A DNA stretch of 64,000 bases from Dryococelus australis (Eukaryota > Arthropoda > Insecta > Phasmatodea > Phasmatidae), in contig CM056994.1 in assembly GCA_029891345.1 (NCBI GenBank), forward strand, positions 140,266,457 to 140,330,456, given 5' to 3'. The notes under the pieces were generated by a model. That model was not told the DNA's origin and did no database searches. It saw only the letters and a program-made list of their open reading frames with translations. Numbering within the stretch: position 1 is the first letter of the stretch; each line of letters starts with the position of its first letter. Positions 16,290 through 48,009 of this stretch are shown here, piece after piece. A program made the translations under genes and the position numbers.

Positions 16290-17155
16290 ACGTAGAGGAG
16301 CTTCAAAAATGTAGTTCACACACATGCCTTCCCGATATCAGACGTTATATAAAAATCCAAATTATTGTAAAAAGTTATAAAACTATCGCATTGTATCTTA
16401 CGAAGGGAAGTAAAGTATGAAGGATCTCCGGAGCACTGCCCTCTGTCCGCCCAAACCAAGCTTAGCAGTAGTACTGGAAGAACCTAGCTAGGGAAGAGAT
16501 ATGCTACGCTGTTTTCGGCGTACATGCTAGCAAGGTCCCGTTAGCCGACTCCCTACATCCCTCTGCCAACAAGCCTGGAGCAGGATGACTCTAAAAGGTC
16601 AACACCCTCCATGCCTTTGTGGTCGAAGGGTGTTTGAAAAGGTTCGCAGCCTCAACTCTCAACAGATTTCGAGCACATGCTCCAAGTGAATATAATTTTA
16701 AGAAATAAATCACACTGAAAAATAATCTCCCAAACACGTAGAATTATGTCACAAATTAACTTTAATCCACAAAAATCCAAAAAATTATATTTCAATTCGA
16801 GTAAATTACAACAGTGAATTAAACAAATGTAATAAATCACATTCCAAATGACTTTAATTCGCAAAACTCCAGTAAATTATATCCCAATTCCAAGAAAATA
16901 AATAACATACAAAGCAAAGAAATATAACCTATCAAAAACAATTAAAAAACCCAGAAAGATATTTCGAGATGCTAAAACATCACTATAAAAATTTATCTCC
17001 TAAACACAATGAATTACATCCCAACTAATTTTAACACTAGCAAATTATATCAATTAATTACGAATAATTACATACACGGCAAAATTATTTCTAAAATATT
17101 AAGAGATCCGCTGTCCAATTGTACAAATTAGGTTTTAAAATTAGGTATTTGTCAT

Positions 17156-17431
17156 CTATTTGAAATATTTCATTAATGTAACCATTAAAAAGTAATATTC
17201 ACAAACAGTTTTCCAACCGACAAAGCACACGGTATTATGTACTATTGTCACACGGAGGAATCGTTTACGTCGCATTTCAAGCATTTGATTATATATGTCG
17301 TATGTTTGCCAAACAGCACTAATACACTGAGAGAGGTACGGTGAACAAACGTCGTACATATTCTGAATCATTAATAATTCCAAGTAATTTTCTTTATCCG
17401 GGAAAATAAAATACCTTTTTTTGGTGAACAT
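17156..17431 (-). CDS. Small conserved protein encoded in the FB-2 arms (intact copy)
   Basis: An open 91-codon frame with an ATG. The inverted copy in the other arm (about 40890-41180, plus) encodes a clearly related protein, sharing CSPY, CISAVW and YD-type words in order, but it is interrupted by stops. Keeping a frame in one arm and similarity at the protein level in the other suggests it once encoded a real product. No domain is recognised. It is Cys/Tyr-rich with a C-terminal hydrophobic stretch. It is transcribed outward, and only 84 bases separate it from the divergent ORF at 17516, so the gap could hold a shared promoter. It could still be a chance ORF in repeat DNA. Confidence 0.45.
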   Translation of the reverse strand: MFTKKRYFIFPDKENYLELLMIQNMYDVCSPYLSQCISAVWQTYDIYNQMLEMRRKRFLRVTIVHNTVCFVGWKTVCEYYFLMVTLMKYFK

Positions 17432-17515
17432 TTTGCATGTAGATTTATGTGAAAGACCAAATTTTAAAATACTTGGTTATAGAATAAACAAAATTTTGTG
17501 TTGTGAAAATAAAGG

Positions 17516-17701
17516 ATGATTATAATACATTCTTTGTACAAAGTTTTAAATGTTTCAATCCAAGATTTTTGGATACACCATCGTATATATCAGAAACGTA
17601 TATATTTAGACAAATATGAGGCTTTTTATTTAAAAATACTAAATCTTAGTGATATATTATTAAATAAAGACCACAAATCACTTTTCGAGAATAAAAATTA
17701 A
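17516..17701 (+). CDS. Small ORF divergent to 17156-17431 in the FB-2 left arm
   Basis: 61 codons, basic and Lys/Tyr-rich. The other arm (about 40620-40810, minus) keeps a related reading (KVLNVS, RRIYQK words) with stops towards the end. No known domain is seen. It is head-to-head with the 91-codon ORF. It may be the first exon or N-terminal part of a longer decayed gene running inward toward the zinc-finger gene. Confidence 0.35.
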   Translation: MIIIHSLYKVLNVSIQDFWIHHRIYQKRIYLDKYEAFYLKILNLSDILLNKDHKSLFENKN

Positions 17702-18397
17702 CTCGGTAGAAGGTAAAATATGGTAAATGTAATGATATCTCAAAATAAAATTTTGTAGAGGTATTATTTTAACCAAAATCCAAGCAAAAGAGCAGCCATT
17801 TTGGATTCGAATACTTTATAAGCAGGGCAATAATTTCCGACTCCTAACAAATTATTTACATCTTAAAGAGCTACCGGAAACAAATAACACACTTCCACAT
17901 ATAACTTATAAAGTTGTCATAGTGAATTATCAAACAAAATTTACTGGGAAAACGAAATTCTTATTACATACATATGTTTAGAGCAGAGCATATTTCAAAC
18001 ACCGTTAAGACAATCCCAGCTACCAAAGGATTACACACCAGGTTAGCCTTCAACTAACACGATCGTTTCAGAAAACAAAATATTTAAACATTCGCTACAG
18101 TAGACTTCCAAACCCATCTCTCCCTTTCAATTCGTAAAATTAAATTATCCTTTATTTACTTTTAAATCGAATATCAAGTAATGACGTTCCGATTATCCAG
18201 CTTCAGACACAATGTAACATTTGCCCTCATTCGTATTCTGTCTAATATATGTAAGTTTGACCATATAGTGTATTAATATGTATAATTACACATTGAACAT
18301 AAACATATATCACAGAGAAGGCATTTTGTTATCATTAATTAAACCCGTTAGAATTTAAAGTATTACATTTATACAGAAACCAAAGAGTAATCACAGA

Positions 18398-18834
18398 ATG
18401 AACCTTGATGAAACTGGAGGCGAATGTATCACCGAATCGCCTATACTGCAAATACTGCGGAAAATAATACACACGTTCGCCTACACTGTTCTTAGGCGTG
18501 AGAAGAGTGAATGTTTGAACAACTCATCTAGGACTATTCTTAACTACAAACACTCTTTTAGACTGTTCGCAAGAGCGGATAACTTGAATCGACGTAGATC
18601 TGTAAATATAATCTTCCTATCGAGAAACGATATATATCGTCTCCACTACTTATCACAGAAACAGACGTATTTCTAAGTAATAATCTTGGACATAATGTAC
18701 TACAAATAACCACAAAGACTAATGACGCCAACAATATGTATGATGAAACACGAAATGAAGATAGCATTGAGGATTCCACCAACAAGTTTCCTTCGACAGA
18801 TGGTGTCAATAATGAGTAAATATTTTACGAAGGT
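18398..18834 (+). pseudogene. C2HC zinc-finger gene, left-arm copy (decayed)
   Basis: Counterpart of 39511-40010. The first finger Cys pair is visible (YCKYCGK near 18445) but in another frame from its H-x4-C half (REKSEC). The second finger has lost its Cys residues and its His (NLNRRR instead of NLNRH in the right arm). The acidic, Asn-rich tail (NEDSIEDSTNKF) is readable in a third frame. Several single-base shifts and stops make it non-functional. It points inward, toward the Polinton. Confidence 0.6.
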
Positions 18835-19875
18835 TCCAACTAACTTGTAAACAGACTTAGATACTTACCTAAACACAGGAAATACTGGACATGGAAGAGA
18901 TGTTTTCCATTATTCGTAAACTTCAAGAACGGGGATACATCGAATGAAAAAATTGAATTATAAAAACCACATTTATTAAAAAAAATATACAATAAAATTA
19001 TTCAACCATATTACTTGCCCGAAAAATTAATTATTTCAGTGATATTTTTCAAGTAAACATTGTGTGATTGAAATATGTTTCCATTTGAAGTATGATGCCT
19101 TTCTCAAGCGGCTTAACTTGTTTGAATTTGGTTGATAAACTACCTAAATTGGAAATGAGTTTTATTGAGGTGTGTCCTTTGAGAAATAAGGAATGTGAGT
19201 GAGAAAAAATAAGGTGTTTTGAGGAATGAGATACGAAATCGTTTATATGTTTTGAAACAATCTATATTATATGTGTAACATGTGTTATGATTTTGATACA
19301 CTCTCTACATTTGCTTGTTAAAATGTTGTGTAAGTTTTGTAAACAACCTGTGTATCGTTTGCTATGTATGTATGTATTTGAAATAACCTGTGTTAAAACG
19401 AATTGATGAACATCCTAAACTTATTATTGCTCGTAAAAAATTATGTATATATTTTGATACAGCTTGTGTTTAAATACTCCGTATGTAGATTGTTAAACAT
19501 CCTATACTTGTTCAATGATGAATATATTTTGAATCAGCTATATTATGTGTACAACATTTGTCAATATATATGTTTAAAATTTAATTAATTTATATTTTTA
19601 TTTAGCAAATCCCTTTACAAACAGAGAAAATAAAATTATTACATTGGTTAATAAATGTCTCAACAGAGATTAATTCTTACATTTACTAAAAGTATGTAGC
19701 AAATAACTAATGGTGTTGTAGCAAGTTAAAAGTGTTTTTGTATTGAAAAAGGCAGAGGAAATTCTGGAAACAAGCACTTTAACCACCTATCCGTTTTCAA
19801 AGTATTCATTTCCGTAACTACCTTTATAATATATCAAAATATTTATTACGTGTTGAACCCTGTTATGTGTTTCAA

Positions 19876-21486
19876 AGAAATAAATGTGTTTGTGTTTGCC
19901 TGTATTTTGGAAGTAACATATGCAGCCTGTATACTAGACATGCTCGCGATGGTTGAAGATGTTATCTAGAAATACACGTGCTACGGTTGAAAACTTGGTT
20001 TTGTTTAAACCGAGTGCAGAGTCTCCTAAATAGCTATGTTTGATCGGATCGGAAGACGATACTCCGCGGCACACACTGTCCGCTGATATACAGCCCCTAA
20101 TAGCTAACACCATTCCCCCCCAACCCTTCTCAAACTTTATCCGCAGTTATGAAACTTCGGAGACCAAATGCCCAACAACGACTTGGTCACCACGACATGA
20201 AGAAAAAAAATTCTCACCACTTCTTCGTAGCCTGTTCAGGTGACACACTAACAGCAGCACTGAACGCCTTTCCCCCATTCTTCATGTAACCCGCCTTGTC
20301 ACATTGTCAGACACAACCCTGCAATGCACAGCTCTATCGCATTCGCAGAGACTACTTACATAAAAATTTATTTATTAAAACATGTATTTAAATTACCGAA
20401 AAATAATTAAATATATACCCAATTTGTAATCTAAATAACAATATAATTAATATTACACAAAAATTGTCCATTCGTGTCGCCGACCTCCACAGCGTAGTAG
20501 GTTTGTTTGTTGGTTTACATTTTTAGAGTTTCTGGGTTCGAATCCCGGGCAAGGGATGAATGATATAAGTTAGTTTGTAAGTCAGTGCCCTTATTAACCG
20601 TCGAACATAATGTACATTACTTAACACTATCGCATATGCATGCAATGTTTGATAAATAATTATTTCAATTGATATTTACGGATTCAAAACAGAAATTCGT
20701 CCGTGTACAATAAAGGTTACAAAGTGTCTAATAAAATGTTTCTAATCGTAGTACTTTAAAAACTTGCAATGCAATACATTCTGGTTGAAAAAGCTCGTAT
20801 TGAAAAAAAAAATTCATTTGTTTACTAAACTGGTCAATAAACATATAATGAAATTAAATCTAATAGCTAATACCGAAGATATAAGCCCATTAAAAATTAC
20901 ATTTCCAATCCCACAAATTGTGTACGGTAAAGTTCAGATAACACACTCGTTTATAAAATAAACCTTTTAATTTTGTAATTTTGTGTGAAATTTGTTTAAA
21001 TTCTAAAGAGAACCATTTAAGATACGTTATTTCTTCGAAATAATTACATTTGCATAACATTTAAGCCGATTTTCGCTATATTATAATTAAAAGGGAGGGT
21101 GCCGGGTTATAAATACAGCTCTATGTGCTCTCGCTGCCATTTGTCAACCTACCGCTGGGGGGAGTAGGGCCTCCACATCGCTGCTGTGGCCACCTCCGCG
21201 CTCCAGACTACGTCCTGCTATGCATTCACACTCGTCGTGTCAGCTTCGGGATAAAGTTTCTGGGGTTGCTGCTTGCAACTCGCCACCTACAGCCCACCAG
21301 TGTTGCTGCCGTTGTTCGCACCGCCCGTCCGCCTTCTCCGGAGCTCTTGCCTGGTGCTGTCGGTGGGAGCTAGCCACCCACAGGCCACAAAGATCGCTGC
21401 CGCTCGCTCACCACCTCGCACAGCCCTTTGGGGGGGGGGAGGTGTCGTCACCCAACCTACATCAAAATCAGAGGTTACCCACATTC
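19876..21486. other. DNA between the FB-2 left arm and Polinton A; no gene
   Basis: AT-rich up to 21060, then a distinctly GC-rich patch (21100-21470) with a run of G at 21430-21439. The patch gives overlapping ORFs in several frames on both strands, which is a composition effect. A SINE-like head lies at 20485-20570. The Polinton polymerase begins abruptly right after the GC-rich patch, which looks like a truncation junction near 21480. Confidence 0.5.
20485..20570 (+). repeat. tRNA-headed SINE-like fragment
   Basis: A-box-like GCGTAGTAGG at 20492-20501 and a perfect B-box GGTTCGAATCC at 20535-20545. The body is not recognised. Confidence 0.5.
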
Positions 21487-24400
21487 GTTAAGGAGATTTT
21501 ATAAAGATTTTGAAAATTATAAAACATGAAATAATTACACAATTATATGAATTTCAAAAAATGTGGTTCAGGATGGACTTTGGATATAGTAACGGGAACA
21601 CAATTAGCTATATATAAGTATAACCCATTAAATCAAGCTAATATATATATATATATAGAACTACCAGAAGTTTTTAAGAAGAAACAGGCATGTATTGATG
21701 CGAAAAATAATGATAAAAAATATTTTCTTTGGTCTATAAAATCAGCATGGTTTCCAGTAGACAAAAATTCAGATAGAGTTACTAAAAATGGAAATCTGGG
21801 GCTCACTATTGATAAAGTAATACATAATTATGAATATTCTATAAAAATTTATGATTTACCAAAAATAGAAAATTAAATTGCTACATCTATAAATATATAC
21901 TCTATTGAAGATGTCTATATTATATTCATTAAAAATTGCAAAGAATATAAAGGATAAACATATAAATTTACTTTATTACAAAAATTATACAAATTCACAT
22001 TATTGTTGGATAAAAGATTTATCTATATTAGTTTCAGCACAAAAATAACCATAAAAGTAAAACTTATATAAGTGATATGTGCCTACAGTTTTTTTCCTCT
22101 CAAGAGAAATTAAATTAACTTAAAGAAAACTGCTTAAAAAATGAATCAGTTAGAATCACTTTAACTTCGAACGGAGAGCAAATATCGTTCAAAAATTACA
22201 TACATTCAAAGAAGGTTCCTTTTGCAATATATGCACATTTTGAATCAATTCTAAACAAAATATCAACCACTAAACCATACCAAAGAGAACTAATTAAGTT
22301 TAACTTTATGAAAAAAATATTCAGTTTTAAGAGAGGTGCTTAAATATGATTAAATGATTAATATATGCTTAAATAAAGACATATTTTATAACGATCAAAT
22401 AAACACTATTGATTTAAAGTTGAATGAAATATCAACTACATGAAGCATCTGGTTCTTGCTATTATATTATAATTAGTTATGGTGATTATAATCCTCCACT
22501 AATATATGAAGGTCCGAATGCACATAAGATGTTTATACAATCAATAAAAAAGTGAAGTAGAAGAAATTGGGGAAATATATTCACAAATTAAGCAATGCTT
22601 CCACAAACAAAAGAACAAAAAATTGATATTTAAAAGGTCTAAAAAATGTACTGTTGTGAAAGTGAATACACGGAGGACAATAAAAAGAATGTCATCATTA
22701 TCGCATAAGTGGAAAATACATTAATCCTGTTTGTAATAATTGTAATCTATGATTAGTATTAAAAATTTTGTTCCAATTATTTGAATAACTTAGCTGGTTA
22801 TGATGCTTATTTATTTATTAAAGAGTAATGATATTATGAAAAAATATATATAAATTTAATTGCAAATAATGAAGAAAAAATTATCACATCTCTTATAGCA
22901 ACAGAAAATCTGAAGATGAGATTTATAGAAACATTTGAATTTATGACCATTAGTTTAGAAAAATTATCATCTAATTTAAATGAAGAACAAATGAAACTCA
23001 CCCAAAAGCATTTTCCGAATGATCAAGTTGATTTAGTTATAAGAAAGGGTTTTTATCTATATGATTATATGGATAGTTGGAAGAAATTCGAAGAAACTGA
23101 ACTTCCACCAGAGTGAATTTTACAGTAAATTAAACGAATCCGACATAGCTGATACCGATTTTGAGTATGCAAAACTTGTATGGAACCAGTTTAATAGTAA
23201 AAATACTTGCGAATATCACAATTTATATTTAAAAAGTGACATATTGTTGTTAGCAGCTATATTTGAAAATTTCAGAAAAACGTGTATAAATGCATATGGT
23301 TTAGATCCTGCGTGGTATTTTACAGCACCAGTATTATCGTGGGAAGCAATGTTAAAAATTAGTAAACAGTCACTAGATTTATTACACAATTATGATATTA
23401 TTTTAAAGGTAGAAAAAGGAATTAGAGGTCGAATATCACTATGTTGTAAGCGATATTTTAAAGCCAATAACAAATATTTAGAAGATATCAATCCAAATCA
23501 ACAGTCAAATTATTTAACTTATTTCGATGCTAATAATTTATATGGTTGGGCATTTTGTCAATACTAACCATATGGTGGTTTCGAATGGGTTAATTATACA
23601 TTATATGATTTAGAGTACTGGAGTTAAAAAATTTAATATTTGGAGGACGATTCTGATTATGGTAATGTATTAGAAGCTGGTTTAGAACATCCACAGGAAC
23701 TGCATAAATTACAGGAAGATCTTTCATTTTGTCCAGAAAATAAGGTAGTTGCAGGAACAAAGCAATACAAATTGTTAACAACTTTACTTAATAAACATAA
23801 GCGTGTACTTCACTATCGTAATTTGAAACATTGTCTAAGTAATGGTTTAAAACTTACTAAAATACATAGAAGATTGCAGTTTTATCAGTACGATTGGCTG
23901 AAAAAGTACATAGATTAGAATACAGAGATGAGAACTAATGCTAAAATTGATATTGAAAAAAATTTCCTAAGCTGATGAATTATTGTGTGTTCGGCTAATC
24001 AATGGAACATATAAGCAAAAGAGTATATGAATATTAATATCAGATGCAGAAAAATGTGAAAAAGTAGTGGCAAAAGCTAATTTCAAGAAAATTACTATAT
24101 TTAATGAAAATCTTGTGGCCATCCATATGCATAAAACAAGGGTAAAATCTAATAAGTCTATTTATGTTGGTATGACAATTTTGGACATATCGAAAGAGTT
24201 AATGTATGATTTTCACTATAAAGTGATGAAACCAAAATTTGGAGATAACATTGAATTATGCTATCAAGACACTGATTCATACCTTTATATCATAAAAATG
24301 GGAATTTTTTACGAAGACATGAAAAAAACTCATAAAAAAATTTGATACAAGTGATTATTCTAATGACAATATCTATAACATGCCACAAATAAATAAAAAA

Positions 24401-24760
24401 GTTATAGGTAAGATGAAATACGAATGTAATGGGAAAATATTGAACGAATTGGTTGGTTTGAGAGCAAAAATGTGTGTATATATATATATATATATTAGAT
24501 AATAAAGAAAATAAAAGATCAAAAGGTGTAAAGAAGTGTGTTGTTAAAAACAGAATTTCATTTAAGTGTTTAAGGGCTATAAGAAGTGTATGTTTAAAGA
24601 GAAAGCAGAATATAGAACAATGAATTTAATAAGGAGTGAAAAGCAAGATATATATCATAGAGGTTAATAAAATTTGCCTTATGTCCTTATGAAGGAAAAA
24701 AGATTACATTAGAACAAATGGATACTTTGCCATATGGATATCAAAATTTATAATTTTATT
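21487..24760 (+). pseudogene. Polinton copy A: protein-primed family-B DNA polymerase, decayed
   Basis: Fragments follow the usual order of Polinton/adintovirus polymerases. 21547-21876 is the N-terminal segment (FKKCGSGWTL, NKYNPL-type words). 22180-22560 is the start of the 3'-5' exonuclease region. 22760-23116 holds the NNLAGYDA-like site and the YDYMDSW word. 23061-23567 is an unbroken 168-codon stretch through the TPR1/palm region with DANNLYGW (motif A). 24067-24345 contains CYQDTDSY (motif C, 24259-24282) with both catalytic Asp. Stops and frameshifts separate the blocks, and motif B near 23950-24010 is degenerate. The N-terminal zinc-module gene seen before the copy B polymerase is missing. 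In the family, this enzyme replicates the linear element using a protein primer. Confidence 0.9.
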
Positions 24761-24771
24761 ACATGTACCTC

Positions 24772-25482
24772 TTATGGGACCTCTATAGCATAGACGTCCT
24801 TAAATTTTCTAATAAAATTGTATAATATTTTAATTTCTTTAATCTCTAAAACAATGTCAATATATGCACCATAAAAATAAATCAGTTTACCATTTTTTCC
24901 CCTAATTTCTAGAACAATGTGATTAAACCATTCATTATTGACTATATAAAAATGGATATGCATGCTCACAACAAATATATTCTCTTAAGCCAAACATAGT
25001 TATTGGTGGAAAACTAGCAATTATATCAGTTTCCAAACGATTATATTCGTTATACTTTATGAACATTCCATACGCCAAAATACAATTAACATTTATTGTT
25101 TTAAATGAATAAAAATTAGGTTACTTAGAACCTACATCAATCTTGTCTTTCTCAATTGTCACATTTCTCTCAAAGCCAAGAATATCGGACAATCGATCGT
25201 CTAATTTCATATCAAACTTAGATTTGATCGATATTCTGTTTTTCACATTGTCTGCTGTCAATTTAATGTTATTTGCTGAAAATTGATCGATTGAATTTAT
25301 AGCTTCTTTTAAAGATTCAAGATTGTATTGGCCTCTGAGAATAGTGATAACTTCATTTTATGAACAAATTTTACATAAAAACTGATTAATGCAATCGATT
25401 TATCTTTATGAAATATATCTTAGTGGAGTTTCTTCTTTAGTACAGAACTGTTGTTTGTTAACTTGAATACTTTATTCTCCAT
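24772..25482 (-). pseudogene. Polinton copy A: candidate penton/minor capsid protein
   Basis: Read on the minus strand from an ATG at 25482. There are several frames with stops (for example after KKKLH), then LSDILGFERNV (the SIGRLLGF-like site of the family), KTINVNCI, and the C-terminal NNEWFNHIVLEIRGKNGKL stretch ending at 24772. Proteins of about 240 residues with this layout lie beside the capsid and ATPase genes in arthropod Polintons and are thought to form the penton or minor jelly-roll capsid. That assignment is from family memory, not proven here. It converges on the polymerase with only about 10 bases between them. Confidence 0.6.
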
Positions 25483-25572
25483 GTATTACAAAATAATCTA
25501 ATTTAAAAAAAAGTCGAGTAATGCTTTGGTGTTTTAATTTCCAAAGAAAATTAATAAAAATAAAAAGAGTAA

Positions 25573-26118
25573 TGATTTTTTTGCCTGACAATATGAGGCT
25601 TAATTGTTGGACCCAGCAAGTGTGGGAAATTGAACTTGATGATTAATTTTATTTATAAGCAAAGATGGCAAAATTTTTATAAAGTGTATATTAGTTCAAA
25701 AAGTTTAAATCAACCAAAATATATTCAGTTACAATATGATATTGATGTAATATCCAACAGGTTTAATAAAAAATTACATACTTTTTCTAATTACAATAGT
25801 GAAATGATTCCTTTAGACCAATGTGAAAATATTTCTTTAGTTACATTTGATGATGTTATGTTAGATGATCAAATTATAATCCATGAGTACTTTTCTAGGG
25901 TAAAATACAAGAATTCACATGTATTTTATCTTGCACAAACATATTCCACAGTGCCCAAACAACTCGTGAGAGACAATACGAACCTTCTGTGTATATTTAG
26001 ACAAGATGACGCAAACCTGAGACATATTTATAATGATTTTGTAGGTGGCATGCCTTATAAAAACTTAAAGAGATGTGTGCAAAATGTTTCAATGAAGACT
26101 ACAGTATTATCACAATAG
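25573..26118 (+). pseudogene. Polinton copy A: FtsK/HerA-type genome-packaging ATPase
   Basis: After LPDNMRL a one-base frameshift leads to VGPSKCGKLN, a Walker A site in which the usual Thr/Ser after GK is Leu. From 25630 the frame is open for 162 codons: Walker B LVTFDDVMLDDQ, then the conserved HVFYLAQTYSTVPKQLVRDN and FRQDDANLRHIYNDFVG stretches. In Polintons and adenovirus-like agents this enzyme moves DNA into the capsid. The 3' part is well kept compared with copy B. The C-terminal CxxCW-type end is lost. Confidence 0.85.
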
Positions 26119-26177
26119 ATTGACTAGAAAAATGAACAGTAGTAAGTACACAAACCAGATCCAACAGTTTTTAACTC

Positions 26178-26307
26178 GGTGAGCTCTCACCACAACACGA
26201 AGGCGCTTTAGCACAGCAGTGCTGTTATGTAGTTGTGGTGTAGCAAACAGTCGCCATGCAACTCGCGATATGAAGCTATCATCGTGTGGTGAGAATAACT
26301 CACCACA
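26178..26307. terminator. Two hairpins after the copy A ATPase
   Basis: GGTGAG-CT-CTCACC at 26178-26191, and a 9-bp stem TGTGGTGAG / CTCACCACA with a 5-base loop at 26285-26307. Both lie within 190 bases of the ATPase stop. They share the GTGGTGAG word, so they may equally be repeat remnants. Confidence 0.35.
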
Positions 26308-26910
26308 TGAAGACTTATAATCATTGCCTCGCTCATCTTGTCGTCATGGCTTAGTGGCAAGGAAGTTTGATTTCAAATGCGAAGGTCGTGGGTTCGATCC
26401 TCGGTCGGAGCAGATAATTTAATAATGTGAATATGAGGCACCCATATTTGCCAATAGATTATCACTAAATAATTCAAAATCAGCGCCAAAAAACCTTGAT
26501 CTTGCTCATACAGCAATGTATAATTATTGATGCAAATAAAAATGGTACATCCAAGCTTCAGAAAAAATGCTCTCCATACTACACATATCGTAGTACAACA
26601 GTTGTATAAACTGGAGTGTTCTCACATAGTGAATGGTGCCTCACTATATGAGGAGAGGTATCATCAAGAAATAAAATAATTTAAAAAAGTACTAAAAAAC
26701 CTTCAATTCTCCACAAAAAAAAATAAAAAATGGCCACCCAATGGTGAACTGAGGGGATACTCCAAATGGAATTTTGATGGTGCTAATTAAGGCCAGAAAA
26801 TTTGGGTCACTGGCATGATAGAGATATAACTCTAACCCCAAAAAATAAACAGGTCACAGGCACAGCATTAAGTTGCTTGTAAACTTTTGCAATTTCTTAA
26901 AGAAAATATT
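26240..26910 (+). repeat. SINE-like element after the copy A ATPase
   Basis: A strong A-box TGGCTTAGTGG (26347-26357) and B-box GGTTCGATCC (26391-26400) head a body that matches 60135-60745. Shared words run from ACTCACCACATG upstream of the head, through a GTATAA...GTGTTCTCA segment and a GATACTCCAAATGGA / GGTTACTCCAATTGGA segment, to AAGGCCAGAAAAT, AACAGGTCAC and GCTTGTAAA. Because homology begins about 60 bases before the tRNA-like head, the mobile unit is either longer than its head or was copied together with the Polinton. Confidence 0.75.
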
Positions 26911-27024
26911 TTGTTCAAAATTAAGACTTATATAATTATTCAACTATAAATTTAACTATACATTTTGTGCTGCCCATAAAATATAATCGAACAGATTGTG
27001 TTATCAACTTTTTAAATAAATTAT

Positions 27025-28250: not shown

Positions 28251-28639
28251 AGATTGACTAGAATCGGTAAAAATAGCATTTCCTTGTTTGGGATAAAGTG
28301 CGATTCCTTTAACGAAATCATAAATAAAAGAAAGATATTGTTAATGACTTAGAAAATGTAATTCATTAGAGCTATATAATAGCAGAAAAATATATAAATT
28401 TTTATGAAGATAAAGGGTTCCGGAAAACAGGGCTCCCTTCACTCAAAAACAACTGATTAATTATAGTAATGATCTCTACCGAATTGAGTACAATTAATAA
28501 ATCTGGTTTACATATATTTTTCATTTTCTTACTAAAAGAATACTACCAAGAAGATTTATTACAACTCACCAATTCAACTTGCGCATAATTTCGCATAAAA
28601 AAATTGAGTCAATTTTAGACATAATTAATATCAAACTTA
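28251..28639. other. Spacer between the metalloproteinase and BRO genes
   Basis: AT-rich. The end of this stretch (28565-28640, CAATTCAACTTGCG...) resembles the sequence before the first BRO unit of copy B (52690-52760), so it is probably the 5' part or leader of the BRO gene. Nothing else is seen. Confidence 0.4.
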
Positions 28640-29436: not shown

Positions 29437-29444
29437 ATTTTAAG

Positions 29445-30290: not shown

Positions 30291-30384
30291 TAATTTATAT
30301 ATATATATGTTAATCTTTATATTTCATGAATATTCCTATTGTAGTCAACATTCCATCAACAAAATAAATAGATAATTATTTTAA

Positions 30385-31420: not shown

Positions 31421-31433
31421 TGTCATTTAATAA

Positions 31434-31800
31434 CTAAGATTTTATATCATTAAACTTATAACCACTCGAAAAAATATGTAAAACAATTAAACATAGACGT
31501 CCACATGTAACTGAATCAAAATTCTGAATTCGACCATCATTGTAATAAATGATTTTATTATTGAATTAATTAGTAATGATATTAGGAATATTACTTCTAA
31601 ATGATTTGAAATAGTACACATCGTTGTTTTCTTTGAAATAGCAAACCGAATGAGTATTAGGATTTGTTGAAATATCTAAATTTACCACAGCACACTCATC
31701 TTTGAGCATATTTTTTGGTATTTCGTCAGTCACATAAACATTTCTGAAATGTTATATATCTATCGATGTTAGATAATTAGGATATATTCAAATTTTTTTC
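31434..31800 (-). pseudogene. Polinton copy A: adenain-like cysteine protease
   Basis: Nearly one frame on the minus strand. EIPKNMLKDECAVVNLDIS leads to THSVCYFK (catalytic His kept, the usual Trp after it replaced), YYFKSF (the acidic partner of copy B's YFDSF is Lys) and VTCGRLCL (catalytic Cys kept). It ends at 31434. There is one internal stop. In adenoviruses and Polintons this enzyme matures capsid proteins. The lost acidic residue and the stop make this copy dead. Confidence 0.75.
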
Positions 31801-31814
31801 GTTATTCACTTTTT

Positions 31815-32215
31815 TTTTTTTGCAACCAAACCCCTTCCTGGTTTATTTTCTATTGCTAAATTGTGTTTCAGTTTTTCTTCAAATTATTTTTTATTTTTTC
31901 TAGTTTCTTCGACAGAATAGTAAATTGCACTAGCTCCTCCAGCCAAGGCATCAAGTGTACCTAAAGAAGCAAGTATAATAGGAATAATTCCTCCATTGTG
32001 TAAACCACTTGCAGATTTTTCTTTGCCCATCTTTGTGACTGTTGGTAGTGATAAAGCTAATTTGAAACTCTTACCTTCTTTTATTTTTCTTCTTAATTAT
32101 ATACTTTGTTAAAAATATATCTATATCCAAATCTTTTAATTCCTCAAAGGGAATATTGAAAAATATGTATTTTTCTTCCTTTGTAAGTAATATATACAAT
32201 CAATAAAACCTTTAA
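31815..32215 (-). pseudogene. Polinton copy A: small Gly/Ala-rich basic protein
   Basis: An N-terminal part (YIFFNIPFEELKDLDIDIF) is followed, after a frameshift, by FKLALSLPTVTKMGKEK, a hydrophobic Gly/Ala stretch (IIPIILASLGTLDALAGG) and a Lys-rich tail (RGLVAKKKK). Copy B has the same layout at 47640-48005. Small proteins with this composition sit beside the protease in many arthropod Polintons and recall adenovirus core or membrane-active minor proteins. The function is not established. Confidence 0.5.
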
Positions 32216-32224
32216 ATTCCCCAC

Positions 32225-33485
32225 CGTAATTTTCTTTTTATAAACATTGTTGGAGCAACAGCAAAAGAAGCAATTTTTCGCCATTTCGTGTGTTTTAACT
32301 AACATAATTTCTTTTGCTTCTTTTTGTAAAATTTTATCAGCTTGATGTCTAAATTTTAAATCTTTGTTATCTTTATAATCAATATCGTGATATTTCCATG
32401 CTTCAAATAATTTATTTATGCCATTGTCTCCTCTGTCTATTCTTTCATTTAATTCTGTAAATGGTCCACAATAATTAGAGCCAGGCTAATGCATTTCGGC
32501 CAAATTTAAATTGTTTAATGCCCAATTTAGAATACCTTTGTAATTGTATTCAGAATTCCAAAATGAATGTGGAATAACATTTAAAACACTTATAAGATAG
32601 TACATTCCTTTCTGGTTATCAATGACAAAATCAGAAAATTTATTGTCAAACATATTCCTTTTGCTTACTTTTTCATTGTAATCCTTTATTTCCAGCATTT
32701 TCTTCACTATATATAAATAATAATCTATAAACCAATTTTCTAATATCATCCATCGAGACATATTCTTTTGGTTAATTATTGTATTTTTTATACCTTTTCC
32801 TGATGTAGGAGATCTTGGGGAAATCGTCCTTGCTGGTGGTTTGGTACAGATTTTGATTGCTATAGTATACGCTGTTCATAAATAAAATCATAAAATGGTT
32901 TTATTATATTCCCGTACTTCCAACTTTTGTGAGCATTTATTTGTTTACAAGGTTTATATTTTCGGAATGCAACATTTGTGTATAAAATTACTTTTTGTAA
33001 TTTTCATAGTCATTTTCAATGTTTTTATCCGTAAGATCTGGTTCTTTTATTTTGTTAACAAATTAGAAAGCACTTCTGCTAATATATATTATTTACCATT
33101 AATACATAGTTTATAGTTTTTCATTATTTATTTTTATTTCTGTATTTCGAAAGTATAATTTACGATTTTCTGCTCGTAAACCATTTAGTGTTTTGAAAGC
33201 AATTTTTTCAGAAATTACTTTTCCGATATTTATAGTAGAATCAGATGATGTTTCTTGTGGTGTTGGTGGATAATATAAACTTTTTACTGTTACAGGAACT
33301 AATATATTTATTGAATTTTTATTTTCACCACTAACTTGATCTACTTTTTTACCATTATTGTGTAGTTCGTCAATTCAGGGTAGATATTTCTTCTTATTTT
33401 GTTCATATTCCACTTCATGGTGTTTTTTTTTAAATATAATTTTTATATCTCTCGTTGAGTAATTTAACTCGAGAAATGTTCTTCA
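32225..33485 (-). pseudogene. Polinton copy A: protein with a C-terminal parvovirus-type phospholipase A2 domain
   Basis: From 33485 on the minus strand: an N-terminal helix (ISRVKLL), a middle domain with the FRNTEIKI / GLRAENRKLYF word, DDIRKL-like remnants, then the open 91-codon frame 32761-32486 (KGMYYLISVLNVIPHSFWN). Next come NYCGPFTELNERIDRG (Ca-loop-like CGP) and WKYHDIDYK, which keeps the HDxxY catalytic signature of PLA2. In parvoviruses this domain breaches the endosome. A virion role here is inference. The layout matches copy B, where the PLA2 part is one clean ORF. Stops and shifts are frequent. Confidence 0.7.
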
Positions 33486-33494
33486 ACTATTTCA

Positions 33495-34645
33495 ACTAAT
33501 CAAACCAGAATGAATTTAAATGTTTACAATAATTGAATTGAATTTGATATTCCAATAGGAGATGTCTTTTTTTTTCCAAATGATGCTTATATTCATGAGC
33601 AATATAAATTACTCAAAAAGGATAAAGGAGGAAATGAGCAAAATATGTAAAAGAAGACAATATTGATGTTTATTCGAACTCTTTTCCTTTTCAATTTTCT
33701 TGAGTATAAATTTCAAAACATGGAAATATTTTTGAAGCTGTTGATAATCCAGGTATAGCATCAACAATAATGATTACTTTATTAAGATCAACAAGTGAAC
33801 AAATTATTTAGAATTTTCTGGTGTTAATAATAAATATCGAGTTAAATCTGTTCACTTTCATAAAACAAATAAAATAACGTATTCTCTTAGATATTTGCTC
33901 GGTTTTATTCATGACAGAAATGTAATTTATTGGAAAGGAGGTTATAAAATTAATTTTTTTAGAAATTCATCATATAACAACTCTTTATTTGTTTATGAAA
34001 CAAAAAATGTTGATGGTACGCTTCAGAAAAGTTATGCTGAGCCAGGTAAATTTGTAAATGATAAATTAGAAATTATGTGGCTTATTGTTGAATACGAATC
34101 TAACACGGCCATTGCAATTAAAGACAAATATACAAACATCTTAAATGCGTATTAGTTTTGATTATTGGCAATTTATAGAAAAAGAAGTCCCTGCTGAAAC
34201 AACTGTTTTTAACTTTTATATTAAATATTAGTTTAATAATTTACAATTTGACGTCAGATTTTGTAATTGTATCTGTGTAGAAAATGATAGAAATAAAATT
34301 TTTCCGAAAGAAAATTGGAATCTAGATTTCGAAAATGGCATTTGTTATTAAATGTGTCTTGTTTATGGTAATTTCAGAAATTCTAGAACAAAACTAGATA
34401 TTATGTAGAAATAATTAACTTTATAAAAAACCAACAGTAAACTTCGAAGGCAAAATCAGTAATTATTAATTTTTTTGGCCGAAGAACATTGTATATTATT
34501 GATTGCTTATATAGAAAAACAAATGTGGCATATACAAATTTGTGTAGATTTTAATAAAAAAGTTGGAGCAAATACAATTTGTAATATTGTTGTAATTAGT
34601 CAACGGAACTTAAATTATGATTATTTGAAAGTGAGAATTACTTAA
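33495..34645 (+). pseudogene. Polinton copy A: double-jelly-roll major capsid protein
   Basis: Begins IEFDIPIGDVFFFPNDAY, with decayed middle parts (FQNMEIF). An open stretch at 33895-34155 contains YWKGGYKINFFRNSS and LEIMWLIVEYESNTAI. Then WQFIEKEVPAETTVFNFYI, ENWNLDFENGICY and MCLVYGNFRNS follow in other frames. Order and spacing fit the about 450-residue double-jelly-roll protein of arthropod Polintons (NPGITST, YPYDNLNLDF-like sites), which forms the hexon-like capsid. It is longer at its 3' end than copy B, which is truncated after the SNTAI-equivalent site. It diverges from the PLA2-domain gene with only about 10 bases between them. Confidence 0.7.
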
Positions 34646-34955
34646 TATATACAAATAATATATAATTATTATATTAATTAATTATATTTTATACTATTTA
34701 TTATATTATATACTATGTTATATATTATATTAACAATTCATATAAATATATATAATTTTTAATATTAATGAATGGAAGAATGAACAACATGTTTCGATAT
34801 TTTAATGCAATATTTTTACCCATAGTGGTTGCAATTAAAAGTTTTACTAATTTTTTGAAATATATATGAATTATTTGATTACATAAAAAAATCATTTTCA
34901 CAATTCTAAATATTTTTTTCTGTGTCTTAATAAATTTATTTTCTTTATAAATATA

Positions 34956-35225
34956 ATGAAAATGCCTTTGTTTCCATGCAGTTTGACTAACAATTTAAAA
35001 GGCAATTGTAGTGGTTCAAGACCGTCTTCCTATAGATTAGGTAATGCATCCGAAGGTCTTCAAAATAGGGTTCACAAATTTTATTCAAAATTACAAATCT
35101 TACAATTATCAATCTCAGATAACATTGCAGATAAAAATGAACTTCGAGATATATGAGAAAATATAATGCAATTAGAAGAAGTTTTTAAAAAATTATTAGA
35201 TCTTCCAGTATACACTGTAAAGAAT
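34956..35225 (+). pseudogene. Small conserved Polinton protein, copy A
   Basis: 66 codons open, then a stop and further matching codons (QLEEVFKKLL). Recognisable words are SLTNNLKG, PSSYRLGNASEGLQN and helical DNIADKNEL. Copy B has the same protein at 53755-53998, placed before the zinc-module and polymerase genes. Probably a short coiled-coil protein; function unknown. In copy A it is the last recognisable Polinton gene. Confidence 0.55.
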
Positions 35226-35254
35226 AAAAACATAATATTTAAGTTTATTATTTT

Positions 35255-35560
35255 TTTTTTGGTATGAATTTGCTTGATTTAGATTATTCGCTTGCAAAAT
35301 TGGCATTTCTAGAAAACACGAAAATTTGCTTGATTTTGGTGTAAAATTGCTTGATTTGGATGAAAATTTGTTGTTTTTAAACTATGGAAAGTTCTACAAG
35401 CCTTTTTGTGAAATATTGGAAAACTTGCATGATTTTGGTTAATTTTGCTTGTTTTTGAGCGTTGAAAATTTATGTCAAATGAGGTTTCTAGAAACTTTAC
35501 AAAAATTGGGTTGGAAATGATAAAATTACTCGAATTTTGGGGTAATTTGCTTGATTTTTC
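35255..35560 (+). repeat. TTTGCTTGATTT-type degenerate tandem repeat
   Basis: The word TTGCTTGATTT or a near variant occurs about eight times, with TTCTAGAAA spaced between some copies. No gene. Confidence 0.7.
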
Positions 35561-38449
35561 AAAACGTGGGATGAGATTGTACTCGTAATATACATCTACT
35601 AGAAGGCTGTTGAATGATGATTAATTTAGATATGATGTCTGAGGAGGTGGGCTCGTAGTTACTTAATTGGTTTGTAATTATTTTAAAAAATTTTATGTGT
35701 TGGGTTGGTGCGTTATTGCCAGTATGAATTGAGGGATAGGCGTTTGATATGCCGCCATGTTTCATGGTATGGAAGAGACAATATATTCACAACAAAGACT
35801 TGAAACCTTTGTTTTGAATTGAGTTGTCTGATGAGAATGCTTGGATGTATATATGGAGTTCTTATGTTTGCGTGTGTATGAGAGGGTGGGTTTGGGTAGT
35901 TTGTGACTAGTGTTTAATTATTTTTTAGGTAGTTTGTGGGTGTATTAATTGATATTATTAATTTTTGTGTTTGAGTGTAATATATTAATTCCTCTCGTCA
36001 AAACTTTCTGGACGAAATCATCATTAATATTGTTATTGAAGGTTCAATGTTTAAAATATTGTTCAACTTTAAGAGTGTCAAGTAATTTAAATTACTTTAC
36101 AGAAACTTTCTTTTTAAAATGATAAAGTTAATTTAACCGTAATATTTAAAGTTTTGTCTTAAACATATCGTGTTAGTGTAGAGTTCAACAAGTCTCCTAT
36201 AATTCAATACATATTATGTGAGCTATAAATATTAAATATGGTCTAAACACCGTTCTCCTGTTATGAAGCGCAGAGGCCGTGCGCTGCGAACGCACAGTCC
36301 TTTAACACGTGAGCTAATGTCTAGGAGCGCGGTGTGTTGGAGAGTGCCGGCGGTTTCGGAGTGTGCTGCGTTGCGTGGAGTCGCGCAAAAGGTGATGGGA
36401 GGGAAGTGGTGTCCATCATCGTAACTGCAGGTATGGTGACGCTTGTCACTAGAAGGGAGGGGAAGGAGGCGGTGGAGTGCCTAGGAGTATTCGAAGAGGC
36501 GGGGAGTGTCGGCTGTGTCGGAGAAGTGAAGGCTAATAACTGCTGCTTACAACGGCTGTTTCTCCAAACATGTCCTGCTCTCAATTCTCACCGCCCCGGT
36601 AGCTGGCATTTACAATGGTTGTTTCTGTAAACACGTCCCGCTTCGTCGTGGTTCCGCGAGCGTTCTGTGGCATCCCTAAATGTGACTCAGGAAACTTTCT
36701 TGTGGACTGGGATTTTTTCAAACACAGTTCACGAATGAATTTAAATTTTATAATAGAATTATATTCTTTCTCTTCATATAACATAGCATACTTATGCAAC
36801 GAGTGAATAATATTTGTCAATATCGTAAATTCAACAAGTGTAAGGTTAAGTTTGGTCAAAGTGTTTTATATATTGCTGCATCCGTACGAACAGCGACATG
36901 CGTAACACATCATTTTTTCATTAACCAAATCAGACCCAGTGTACACAATTGTGTATATTATGCAACTGTAGGTAATTTTTGGTCTGTACTGCACACTAAG
37001 AAACTCAATGACCAATTATCTTACTTGTGGGTAAATTATTTGCAAACCATCTTACTGGTCTAAGTCATAATTGGTGCATATTAATGTAGGCCCACACATA
37101 GTCTACTGCTAATTGTCTGTGACTACGAAACAAGCTTAGTGTCAACATAAATACCACTGGGATTGAAAATTTTTTGTTGTTTACAACATTTGAAACCGTA
37201 AACTAATTTGGGTTTGAAAAGGTTTAACAAAAAATATTTCCATGTGAGAAATAGTTTCTATCGAGGTAATATAAAACACAGTCTCACGAAAGTCTCTAAT
37301 CTAAAAGCTCCTCGACGATATACTTTTTCCCTTGAAATAAAATAAACAGCAGACCAAACACTTTAAATTACACGAGGAAAACGTCAGTGTGTATTGCACC
37401 CATAACTTCAATGAAAAAGCAGCTGTGGTGGGAGGATACATTGTATACATAATTTTTTCAACTTACATGAAAACACCAACCATAACAGCAAGGCATCGAA
37501 CCGAGGATCTGCTTCGCTGTCAAACCAGTTTTTTAGCAGTATGACAGCCAGTTCTGTACTCGCATGGCTGTCAGTTTCCTACCAGCATGGTTGCCAGTAT
37601 GTATTCTTCAATGCAGCCTTTATTCTGGCTCTTCATCAGAGCAAACAATGTATTCCTATGTGCAAGAGACATATTTTTTAAGTACACTACACACGTGTGA
37701 ATGTGGAGATGGAGTATTTGTGAGTAATGAAGTGTCTTGTTATTTATTTTTTACAGGAAACTAACATTATTTGGACGATTTGAAAACCTCGGAGTATGGA
37801 AGAATATTGAGAAGAAAAGATTGTGAAAAATTGAGAAATCCCGAGAAAATCCAGCTGGACATTGGACCTGGAACGCCTTAGTGAGAGGATAACATGACAA
37901 CTACTAGAGCTAACTGCTTATGAAGTTATATTTTAGAAATGTAATTTCATTTTCCCGACAAGAAAACAACGTCGAAAATGTTGGTTTGGTCAATCTGGAA
38001 GTTTTCTCAATGGCAGTGTTAGCATCCAGCGAAAAGTTTCGTCCTTCAACAAGATTAGCCTCAGATAGCAGAGAATCTTGCGCAAGAGATAAAAGTCTCT
38101 TGAACACTGCGGCGAGGTGAACGCTATCTTATGTATGGAAAACAAGTCTATGAATTAAACTCCGACACTATTCGCTTAAGATTCGTTTATTCCAAAATAC
38201 AAAACTAAATTTCAATAACGTTTACTATTTAAAAATTAAGCTTATTATTACTTGTTCATAATACAAATTAAATGAAACTTTTATCACGAAAACAGTTTTT
38301 ATAACATTTAAATTAAAATTTATTTTTGGGATAGGAGAACATACAGATCAATGCTTACAATGAAAAAATAAATCCAATAAGTATTATGTTGTGAAAAAAC
38401 GATTCAATTGTGTTTGGGAGATTAACACAAGGATTAAGTGATTATCTTT
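35561..38449. other. DNA between Polinton A and the FB-2 right arm; no gene supported
   Basis: G/T-rich at first. A GC-richer patch lies at 36255-36560 and gives overlapping ORFs on both strands (36321-36630). The remainder is AT-rich, with several 60-95-codon ORFs that show no recognisable domain. A B-box-like word on the minus strand near 37494 lacks a convincing A-box. I see nothing that extends the Polinton here. Confidence 0.45.
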
Positions 38450-39510
38450 AAATAAACACATAAGAGGGTGCATCACATATTAATACTTTGCTTTATTGTA
38501 AAGTTAGTTATGGAAATGAATCATTTGACAACAGATAAGTGGTTAGAGTGCTTACTTCCAGAATTTTCTCTGCCTTTTTAATATTAAAACACCTGTTAAC
38601 TTGTCACAACTCCATTAGTGATTTACAACATAATTATTCAAAATTTAAAAAAATATATCTCTCTCTGTTGAGACATTTTATTTACCAAAGTAATACATTT
38701 CATTTCACAGTTTGTGAAGGGATTTGCTAAATAAATCTACAAATCAATTTATTTTCAAACATATTTATTGACAAATGTAGCACATATAATACAAGATGAT
38801 TTAAAATATATACACGATTTAAAAAGTGCAGGAAATTTCACAATTTACATACAAAATATTTTAACTCAGGCTGTTTCAAAATATATACATAATTTTTTAC
38901 AAACAAAAGGAAGTATAATATGTTTCGTACATTCGTTTTAACACAGGTTGTTTCAAATACATACATATAAAATGTTACACAGGTTGTTTCAAAACTTACA
39001 CAATATTTTAAAAGCAAAAATACAAGGTGATTCAAAATAATAACACATGTTACACATATAATAAAGGTTGTTTCAAAACTTACACACGATTCCGTTTCTG
39101 ATTCCTCAAAATCATTCCTCAATACCCTTTCACAAAGAACGTAGGTTATTCCTCACTCACATTCCTTTTTCCTCAAAGGACATATCTTAGTAACACTCCT
39201 TTCCCCTTTAGTTAGTTTATCAACCAAATTCAAATGAGTTAAGCCACTTGAGGAAGGCATAATACCTCAAAATGAAACATATTCCTATCACACAATATTT
39301 ACTTGAAATATATCTCTAAAATAATTACTTTTTTTCGGCCAAGTAGTTGGGTTAACTAAATTTACTATAATATTATTTATTTATGTATGCAGTCTTTATA
39401 CTTCATTTAACTCATTCGATGTATCGCCGTTTTTTGAAGAATATGAATAATCGAAAACATTTCTTTTATGTTCCATTATTTCCTGTGTTTAAGCAAATAT
39501 CAAAGTTAGT

Positions 39511-40010
39511 TTACAATTTCGCTGGAATCTTCGGAAAATATGTACTCAATATTGACACCAACTGTCGAAGGAACTTGTTGGTGGAATCCTCAATGGTATC
39601 TTCATTTCGCGTTTCATCAATATGGTTTGAATCATTAGTCTTTGCGGCTATTTGTGGTACATTATGTCGAAGATCGTTTCTTTTAAACACGTTAGTATCC
39701 GCTGCTTCTGTGATATTATGTAGTGGAGATGATACATATCGTTTCTCGATAGGAAGACTATTTTTACAGATTTTAACATGTCGATTCAAGTTATCCACTA
39801 CTACGAACTGTCTAAAAGAGTTTTCGCAGTTAAGAATGATCCTAGATGTGTTGTTGAAACGTTCACTCTTCTCATGCCTATGAACATTGTAGGCGAACGT
39901 GTATATTTTCCGCAGTATTTGCAGTGTAGGCGATTAGGTGATACATCCGTCTCCATTTGCATCAAGGTTGATTGTGTGATTACTGTTCGGCGACAGAATG
40001 TCAACTAACT
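39511..40010 (-). pseudogene. C2HC zinc-finger gene, right-arm copy
   Basis: Two open pieces, 40004-39801 and 39798-39511, in different frames. The first shows the Cys pair HCKYCGK, and the His half of that finger lies in a shifted frame. The second finger has one Cys replaced (NCENS) but keeps NLNRHVKIC (H-x3-C). The C-terminal region is rich in Asn, Asp and Glu (RNEDTIEDSTNKFLRQL) and ends at 39511. The finger layout C-x2-C-x12-H-x3/4-C is the same as in the FB-1 spacer gene. It points inward. It is less damaged than the left-arm copy. Confidence 0.6.
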
Positions 40011-40619
40011 GGTTTCTGTATAAATGTGATGCTTTAAACTGTAACAGGTTTAATTAATGACAATAAATTCTTTCCCTTTTAATATTAGATATGTTCATTG
40101 CGTAATTATACGCATTAATTCACCATATCGTAAGATCTATATATATTAAACGGAATATGAATGACGGCATACGTTAAATAGTATCTGAAGTTGAATAATC
40201 GGTATGTCATTACTCGATATTCGATAAAAAAGTGAATAAAGCAAATCGTTAAAGAGTGGGTTTTCTGAAAAGAACGGGTTAGGCGAAGGCTAGCCTGGTG
40301 TGTAATTCTTTGGGAGCTGGGATTGTATTAATGGTGTTTAAAATATGTTCTGATTTAAACGTATATATGTAAAACGAATTTCATTTTGCCAGTAAATTTT
40401 GTTTGATAATTCATTATGACAACTTTATAGGTTAAATATGGAAGATGGTTTTGGTTTCCGGTAGCTCTTTACGGTTGGGAATCGGAAATTATTGCCCTAC
40501 TTTTATAGTATTCGAATCCAAAATGGTAGCTGCTTTCCTTAGACTTTCCTTGAAATAAGGCCGTTTCGAAATTTTTGGTAGAAATATTGTTAAATTTGCC
40601 ATATTACATCTTCACAGAG

Positions 40620-40810
40620 TCAATTTTAGGCTCAAAATGTAATATGCGCTCTTTCTTCAATAATATATTACTGAAACGTAGTATTCTTAAATAAAATAGC
40701 TTTATATTTGCCTGAGTATATACATTTCTGATATATACGACGGCGTATCAAGAAATCTTGGACTGAAACATTTAAAACTTTGTACAAGAAATGTATTTAA
40801 ATCTTCTTTC
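40620..40810 (-). pseudogene. Right-arm counterpart of the 17516-17701 ORF
   Basis: The minus-strand reading keeps KVLNVSVQDF and RRIYQKCIYSGKYKA, parallel to the left-arm ORF, then meets stops. See that entry for context. Confidence 0.35.
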
Positions 40811-40889
40811 ATTTTAACGCACACAAAACTTTGTATATTCAATAACCAAGTATTTTAAATTTTGTTCTTGCAGAGAAATCTACACGCAA

Positions 40890-41180
40890 AATGCGTACAG
40901 AAACGTATTTTATTTTCTTGGCTAAAGGAAATTACTTCGAAGTATGAATAATTGTGAATATGGACGAAGTTTGTTCACCGTACTTTTCTCATTGTATTAG
41001 TGCTGTTTGGAAAATATACGACTTATGTAACAACATGTTTTAAATGCGACATTATCCATTCCTCCATGGGACAGCGTATGTAACGCTGCACGTTTTGCCA
41101 GTTGGGAAACTGTTTTTGAATAGTAATTTTTAATGGTTACAGTTATTAAACATTCCAAATAGGTGACAGATACATAATTT
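40890..41180 (+). pseudogene. Right-arm counterpart of the 17156-17431 ORF
   Basis: ATG at 40890. The reading parallels the left-arm protein (YFIF, VCSPY, HCISAVWKIYD) but has stops after about 18 and 50 codons and again near the end. It is the broken half of the arm-encoded pair. Confidence 0.45.
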
Positions 41181-41987
41181 TAAAACATAACGTCTGGGCT
41201 ACGGATCTTGTAATATTTTACCAATAGTTTTGCCTTATGCATAATTATTCGTTATTTATTGATATAATTTCCTAATGTTTTATGTTGGGATGTAATTAAT
41301 TGTGTTTAGGTTCATCGTGTTTAAGAGAGAATTTTTTATAATGTTGTTATAGTATCTCGAAATATAGTTCTGGGTTATTATTTCGTTGTGATAGGTGATA
41401 TTTCTTTGCTTTATATGATATATATTTCCGTGGAATTGTGATAAAATTTACTGGAATTTTGCAGATAAAAGCCATTTGGAAGGTGATTTATTATATTCGT
41501 TTTATACGTTGTTGTAATTTGAATTTTGTGGATTATAGTTAATATTGGAATTCATTCTTTGTGTTTAGGAGATAATTCTTTCAGTATTATTTCATTCTTA
41601 AAGTTATATTCACTTGGAGCACGCATTCAAAAACGTTTGAGAGTCGATGTTGCGAACTTTTTCAAACACCCCTCGACTACAAATGCGTGAAGGGTGCTGA
41701 ACTGCTAGAAGCATCCTGCTCCAGGCTTGTTAGCAGAGGGAGGCTGGGAATCGGCTATTGGGTCCTTGCTCGAATGCATGCAAGCAGACAGTGTAGAGCT
41801 TCTTGTAGCTAGCGACGCTCTTCTAGTGCAGCAGCAATTCTTGGTTTGGGCGGACGGAGGGCATGGCTCCGTTGATCCTTCATACTTATCTTCCCTTAGT
41901 AAGATACAATGCGATAGTTTTCTTTTATAAAATGTCTGATATTGGGAAATCGGGCGTGTGAACTACATTTTTGAAGCTCCTCTACAC

Positions 41988-43320: not shown

Positions 43321-43383
43321 CGTGTTAGAATTTTCTGGCTTGTGTGGTTCTATGTTATGTGGTTCTAGTGCGTGTGTTTTTAT

Positions 43384-46240: not shown

Positions 46241-46257
46241 GTAAAAAAAATTATATA

Positions 46258-48005: not shown

Positions 48006-48009
48006 CCAT

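Follow-up and report, generated by a model that had tools for sequence, protein, structure and literature searches.

The locus considered here, in which a pair of long inverted arms encloses a decayed Polinton, raises the question of whether it represents one mobile element or two. It lies in a 64,000-nucleotide stretch of the genome of the phasmid Dryococelus australis (GenBank assembly GCA_029891345.1, contig CM056994.1, positions 140,266,457 to 140,330,456, forward strand), referred to throughout as the window. A first-pass annotation had placed arms of about 3.5 kb between 16290 and 41987 and had offered two explanations, namely that a giant fold-back element had captured a Polinton or that a Polinton lineage had acquired very long terminal repeats. 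Polintons (Mavericks) are believed to be close to the origin of many DNA viruses of eukaryotes, and they have been described as single self-synthesising units. The structure reported here is a nested pair of Polinton-type elements and not one composite. We consider it highly probable that the arms represent very long terminal inverted repeats (TIRs) belonging to an element, here named LT, of a Maverick/Polinton-type lineage, and that the enclosed Polinton, P1, which is of another family, inserted later into the middle of LT. Coordinates are window positions unless a chromosome locus (C2, C6 and so on) is named; the genome searched was the 3.4-Gb assembly from which the window is taken, and at most the 40 best candidate loci were scored per search.

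Self-comparison of the window places the arms at 16379-19872 and, inverted, at 38454-41921 (BLASTN, 78-80% identity, E=0). A global alignment of the two has 3,426 gap-free columns, 83.5% of them identical, and 272 columns with gaps; the Kimura two-parameter (K2P) distance is 0.187. Their inner ends, at about 19875 and 38450, are as sharp as had been described. The outer limit of 16290 has to be moved outwards, the true end being 14161, where 11 other ends, from nine elements, line up; AGTAGT is read in nine of these 11 and is changed by one base in the other two. A scan for this terminus, with a search string that itself starts with AGTAGT, found 20 ends, of which 14 carry AGTAGT, four differ from it by one base and two are degenerate. 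Genome-wide, a 24-base motif of the terminal region is matched 3,756 times with up to 3 mismatches, and its reversed pattern 5 times; for a stricter terminal pattern the two counts are 167 and 0. In the window the outer 2.1 kb of the right arm is missing, hence its stop at about 41987. As neither 16290 nor 41987 is a true end, the target duplications that the first-pass annotation proposed to seek next to them would have no bearing on the element. The window copy of LT is an old, gene-less, long-armed form, with TIRs of about 5.7 kb and a unique middle of about 5 kb, and comprises the following features:

14155-14160, forward strand: left flank CACGGC, the expected 6-bp target duplication, its partner lost (read from the sequence)
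14161-19875, forward strand: left TIR of LT, complete, about 5.7 kb, beginning AGTAGT (terminus common to 11 other ends and terminus scan; inner end by self-comparison)
18381-18648, forward strand: decayed C2H2 zinc-finger gene of the left arm (tblastn with the C11 copy)
19876-21489, forward strand: left part of the LT interior, the 1.6-kb spacer (aligns to about 21300 in the copies at C6:142.28, C2:144.62, C7:22.70 and C6:140.53)
35601-38449, forward strand: right part of the LT interior, the 3.2-kb spacer (match begins at 35601 in C6:142.28; genome search)
38450-41987, reverse strand: right TIR of LT, of which the inner 3.5 kb is present (self-comparison and mapping onto other copies)
39685-40004, reverse strand: broken C2H2 zinc-finger gene of the right arm (tblastn with the C11 copy)

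Termini of the (AGT)2 or AG-repeat type and a 6-bp target duplication are features by which Polintons/Mavericks are recognised, and LT has both. In the seven LT elements for which the terminus scan gave both ends, 28 of the 42 flank positions match over 6 bp (67%), as against 30% in mis-paired flanks (binomial P = 9e-8, with an assumed base rate of 0.27); lengths of 3-5 and 7-10 bp give 20-36%, as against 19-28% when mis-paired. Taken singly, the seven match at 6/6, 5/6, 5/6, 4/6, 4/6, 3/6 and 1/6, the perfect duplication, GACACC, being that of C5:149.29, a gene-less long-armed copy. The ends of C5:169, a gene-bearing element described below, were missed by the scan, and this element stands outside the count.

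These ends bear directly on the first of the two earlier explanations. Long arms around foreign DNA do fit the look of a fold-back element, from some family of cut-and-paste transposons, that captured Polinton cargo; the 6-bp duplication and the AGTAGT ends nevertheless speak for a different origin, neither arm contains a tandem array, and cut-and-paste transposase occurs in the scanned pieces of LT (no dedicated search was made) only as one insertion in an arm of the C6:142.28 copy. We therefore regard a fold-back origin as extremely unlikely. The insertion just mentioned (L009 7291-8280) consists of transposase open reading frames (ORFs) with HTH_psq and weak DDE matches.

The two arms of an element also tend to group together. 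A maximum-likelihood tree built from 14 arm stretches joins left arm and right arm as sisters in C5_149 (support 100/100), in C6_142 (97/94) and in the window (91/90, below the starred level), that is, in three of four elements. Since the arms of one element are sisters, they were probably near-identical at integration, as would be the case if replication copied one repeat into the other, and the pairing of arms would offer a simple view of replication-linked TIR homogenisation in fossil copies.

The spacers, which had been taken for DNA unrelated to the arms, are LT interior and recur with the arms elsewhere. With the left arm (16290-19875) as query there are at least 82 matches within the 40 best candidates. 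Inverted arm pairs flank sequence like both window spacers at C6:142.28, C2:144.62 and C7:22.70, and an arm pair at C5:149.29 surrounds the right spacer alone; in all four, at one end or both, the match extends outwards past 16290 as far as 14158-14161. The arms are, then, dispersed in the genome and form inverted pairs around the same spacers, and P1 lies between them in none of these four copies. The three both-spacer copies hold about 1.1-1.4 kb between the spacer matches, with no Polinton match there, and 408 Polinton gene pieces (capsid, integrase and polymerase) have zero matches in the four long-armed copies. Five gene-less copies with both ends read measure 5-22 kb end to end, some including later insertions. 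Two further pairs of LT ends (C6:13051092-13065941 and C6:112315273-112331861) have identical or near-identical variable terminal bases and are apparently younger insertions.

Probes across the inner junctions give the same arrangement. At 38 places beyond the window matched by the right-junction probe (38050-38850), 12 matches cross from spacer to arm, 17 run from about 38280-38310 onward and nine cover the arm only, so that the last 150 bases or so of the right spacer also adjoin other interiors; the left junction (probe 19475-20275) is crossed at 18 of 38 other places. C2:144 and C4:260 were found with both probes. At the latter (C4:260.084-260.093 Mb) both interior/arm junctions are crossed with about 8 kb between them, and the locus is probably another long-armed copy. 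A local inverted duplication or an assembly misjoin would account for the window having only two arms. The recurrence of the arm-interior-arm order at other loci, the crossing of the junctions at 12/38 (right) and 18/38 (left) places and the 16% divergence of the arms leave it a negligible probability.

The DNA between the spacers is a decayed Polinton, as the first-pass annotation held, and spans 21490-35600. It is identified by its phospholipase A2 (PLA2) domain and by polymerase and integrase stretches homologous to those of a second Polinton in the window, pol2. Its parts are:

21490-35600, forward strand: P1, a Polinton of another family within the LT interior, with its left terminus and about 1.9 kb or more deleted (alignment starts, fetched copies, right terminus)
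21535-24755, forward strand: protein-primed DNA polymerase gene, broken (homology to polymerase pieces of other elements; DNA search)
25597-26115, forward strand: packaging-type ATPase piece, weak (ATPase_2, E=0.0012, below the curated cut-off; tblastn partner in C17:284)
29734-30178, reverse strand: integrase remnants (tblastn to the integrase regions of LT copies; homologous to the rve-bearing stretch 49718-50032 of pol2)
32147-32485, reverse strand: phospholipase A2-like domain, Phospholip_A2_4 (PF08398, 2.7e-8)
35267-35600, forward strand: right terminal region, ending ...CTACT (comparison of P1 copies)

Polymerase, PLA2 domain, integrase remnants and a ...CT end, the last at the right terminus only, mark P1 as a Polinton; one of 48 pieces taken from P1 and pol2 together matched DNA_pol_B_2. 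The second Polinton, pol2 (45141-60419), has an integrase (rve, 3.3e-11) and a PLA2 domain and shares long stretches with P1 at 71-72% identity. Its blocks differ from those of P1 in order and orientation, the block at 28.5-34.5 kb being inverted and that at 34.9-35.2 kb lying upstream of the polymerase.

P1 belongs to a different and abundant Polinton family. Its DNA is found at 39 other loci among the 40 scored, at 74-81% identity; in a further search 32 of 39 other loci begin aligning at 21489-21496. Beyond this point three of four fetched copies share about 1.8-1.9 kb more on the left, and the fourth about 1.1-1.2 kb, so the P1 of the window is truncated there; this left junction is a deletion scar at which about 1 kb of LT interior has gone as well. 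On the right two loci align to 35601 and the others end earlier. At this place the P1 of the window and that of four fetched copies share an ...ACT end, after which the sequences diverge (judged by BLAST for two of the four and by eye for the others); in one of four copies read, 35267-35318 is found again, inverted, close to the left side. Further on, LT interior is matched from 35601 (C6:142.28) or 35608 (C5:149.29) onward, the right flank of P1 reading AGAAGG in the window and AGAATG at the C6:142.28 site.

A mobile composite of about 25.7 kb, as the first-pass annotation had envisaged, was sought and rejected: by eye, arms and P1 are combined at no other listed locus. No P1 locus of the first P1 search lies within 0.5 Mb of an arm locus and the nearest P1/arm pair is about 88 kb apart (C6:169.54 and 169.63 Mb), both again by eye. 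The earlier proposal of a Polinton lineage with very long terminal repeats thus stands for the arms, with their AGTAGT ends, 6-bp duplication and gene-bearing copies, and falls for the enclosed Polinton, which is of the other family and appears as a later insertion.

LT would, on this evidence, be a linear DNA with AGT-AGT ends that integrates with a 6-bp target duplication, probably made by a retroviral-type integrase, and protein-primed replication may keep its two arms alike. The gene-less long-armed window copy would have been moved by enzymes made elsewhere. After its integration P1 would have inserted into the LT middle at 35600/35601, and later deletions, in an order we can only infer, would have cost P1 its left end, along with about 1 kb of the LT interior, and truncated the right arm on its outer side.

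Polinton genes are carried by other LT copies. The whole element at C17:284306476-284319397 has a double-jelly-roll capsid piece (PF21738, 6e-11) and a phospholipase A2 (PF08398, 7.6e-10), and tblastn adds an ATPase piece (31%) and an integrase piece (47% over 38 residues). The same gene block is present at 78-85% DNA identity in C5:169.04, read from TIR to TIR, and at C7:31.34, a 'type I' locus picked by content alone, the capsid side likewise runs into arm sequence. A second whole element, C6:140522913-140539413, has polymerase pieces 29-38% identical to the P1 polymerase. Its polymerase region was scored at 35 other loci, one of which, C10:81.87, also has the left part in common with it over the 3.5 kb compared. 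At C1:377.07 (L046), a polymerase locus picked by content alone, an inverted LT terminal repeat lies about 2 kb downstream, and a further 1 kb upstream matched nothing. The lineage therefore includes a protein-primed polymerase B (the pieces at C6:140.53), which the window copy lacks, together with retroviral-type integrase, ATPase and capsid; the LT polymerase pieces gave no Pfam match of note and two putative integrase pieces gave none.

That LT is a Polinton lineage, some copies of which have polymerase or capsid genes, might suggest that the enclosed Polinton is its native gene set and that P1-free copies are internal deletion derivatives. Against this, the LT polymerase pieces have only the low identity to that of P1 given above, P1 is common at loci not listed for arms, the LT interior resumes at the P1 terminus, and the P1-free copies hold about 1 kb more LT interior than the window does. 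We judge this reading very unlikely.

Several points nevertheless count against a nested pair with LT as the outer element. The 6-bp duplication is perfect in only one of seven elements and fails in C2:144 (1/6); C2:144 and C6:142 each have one degenerate end, and the C2_144 arms are not cleanly paired in the tree, a third copy joining them. P1 has lost its left end, and with it the flank on which a target duplication of its own would show, its left junction being a deletion scar. The comparison of P1 with arm loci is limited to the best 40 candidates per search, and nesting does not by itself account for the loss of the outer right arm.

The zinc-finger gene that had been noted in the arms is present and is of the C2H2 type, its domain best kept in the C11 copy (1.8e-8), and it is broken in both window arms; the scanned window piece gave no Pfam match for it. 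It can be made out in both arms of the window and at 16 further loci that were fetched, a count that includes the locus of the query. A distant relative adjoins phospholipase pieces in another Polinton (L025 4050-4202), which suggests that the gene may be an accessory gene of Polintons. That Polinton (L025 127-4202, with ATPase, PLA2 and zinc finger) lies about 2.7 kb from an LT arm at C6:161.85 Mb.

The gene-bearing elements measure 12.9, 16.5 and about 19 kb, and in none of the three that span TIR to TIR (C6:140.5, C17:284 and C5:169) do polymerase and integrase occur together. The 291 capsid/integrase-side pieces have no match in the C6:140.5 or C10:81.87 stretch, and the 117 polymerase-side pieces none in the C17:284, C5:169 or C7:31.34 stretch; each set does match elements of its own kind (98 and 55 matching rows, self-matches among them). 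Each module is found in at least two independent, largely colinear insertions and so looks like a separate mobile unit. The TIRs of the gene-bearing elements run from about 1.45 to about 2.3 kb, the repeat common to both ends reaching 15607 in C6:140.5 and C10:81.87, 15663 in C17:284 and, in C5:169, 15981 when compared with the window or about 16.4 kb when compared with C17:284; TIRs of 5.7 kb were observed solely in elements without genes. Among the 36 best polymerase loci and the 37 best capsid/integrase loci, compared by eye, no pair lies within 20 kb, a result uninformative on the split since P1, with both parts in one element, also gave no such pair (40 loci each). One may speculate that LT is a two-part Polinton, in which a polymerase element and an integrase/ATPase/phospholipase/capsid element with common ends depend on each other, and that the long-armed gene-less elements are satellites, their TIRs grown to 5.7 kb as one end was copied onto the other; we think this unlikely, the ordinary alternative being that complementary deletions of one larger element explain the separate modules. 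A search of viral contigs with an LT polymerase piece confirmed no relative, and PHROGs gave nothing useful. To the left of the polymerase in C6:140.5 a block of ORFs of about 2 kb (L029 4718-6705), conserved in C10:81.87 and C7:22.71, occupies the position of the zinc-finger region of the window arm and has no Pfam match above cut-off.

Other repeats were observed in the window. A short dispersed repeat of SINE-like length lies within the right spacer (36921-37227; 79-82% match in 26 of 40 scored loci), and an inverted 70% match beyond both arms (13500-13680 and 42411-42594) has no relation to the LT terminus. A 226-bp stretch (43380-43605) that lies between the right arm and pol2 matches its own reverse complement at 84%. 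Another inverted-arm structure occupies 364-7347, with arms at about 364-2425 and 5387-7347 (BLAST pieces of 74-83%), a weak C2H2 zinc-finger ORF between them (3876-4181) and outer ends that were not recognised. A degenerate tandem repeat is found at 63400-63966.

The unexpected part of these results is the giant TIRs of LT together with the division of gene modules that the family appears to show. If gene-less members with 5.7-kb TIRs and separate gene modules are what they seem, Polintons would have helper-dependent parasites and perhaps multipartite genomes. In the literature searched, the phrases nonautonomous or non-autonomous Maverick or Polinton, Maverick-derived MITE and defective Polinton were not found, which is no proof of novelty.

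LT resembles the Polintons/Mavericks (polintoviruses, adintoviruses) in its AGT-AGT ends, 6-bp duplication, protein-primed polymerase, integrase, ATPase and double-jelly-roll capsid. In vertebrate Mavericks the most frequent end motif is (AGT)2//(ACT)2 and target duplications are 6 bp long; intact elements have TIRs of 46-1,447 bp, on average 402 (PMC8097293). The LT TIRs, at up to 5.7 kb, fall outside that range, which is not strictly defining, and LT differs also in having its polymerase and its capsid/integrase genes on separate elements. As with non-autonomous DNA transposons in principle, gene-less LT forms share their ends with gene-bearing relatives, but they are large (5-22 kb) and have multi-kb arms with a zinc-finger gene. 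Galileo elements have long, internally repetitive TIRs. LT is like the Foldback/Galileo elements in its very long inverted arms and unlike them in the lack of tandem arrays in the arms, in its 6-bp duplication and in the Polinton genes of its lineage. The Bidnaviridae are two-part parvovirus-like viruses. Should the split in LT be functional, it would resemble them in distributing replication and capsid functions over two linear DNAs with common ends. Their polymerase is reported to have been transferred from a Polinton in PMC11071308, which cites a title containing 'bipartite genome'. Unlike them, LT is double-stranded DNA in an integrated state and has genes for an integrase and a double-jelly-roll capsid.

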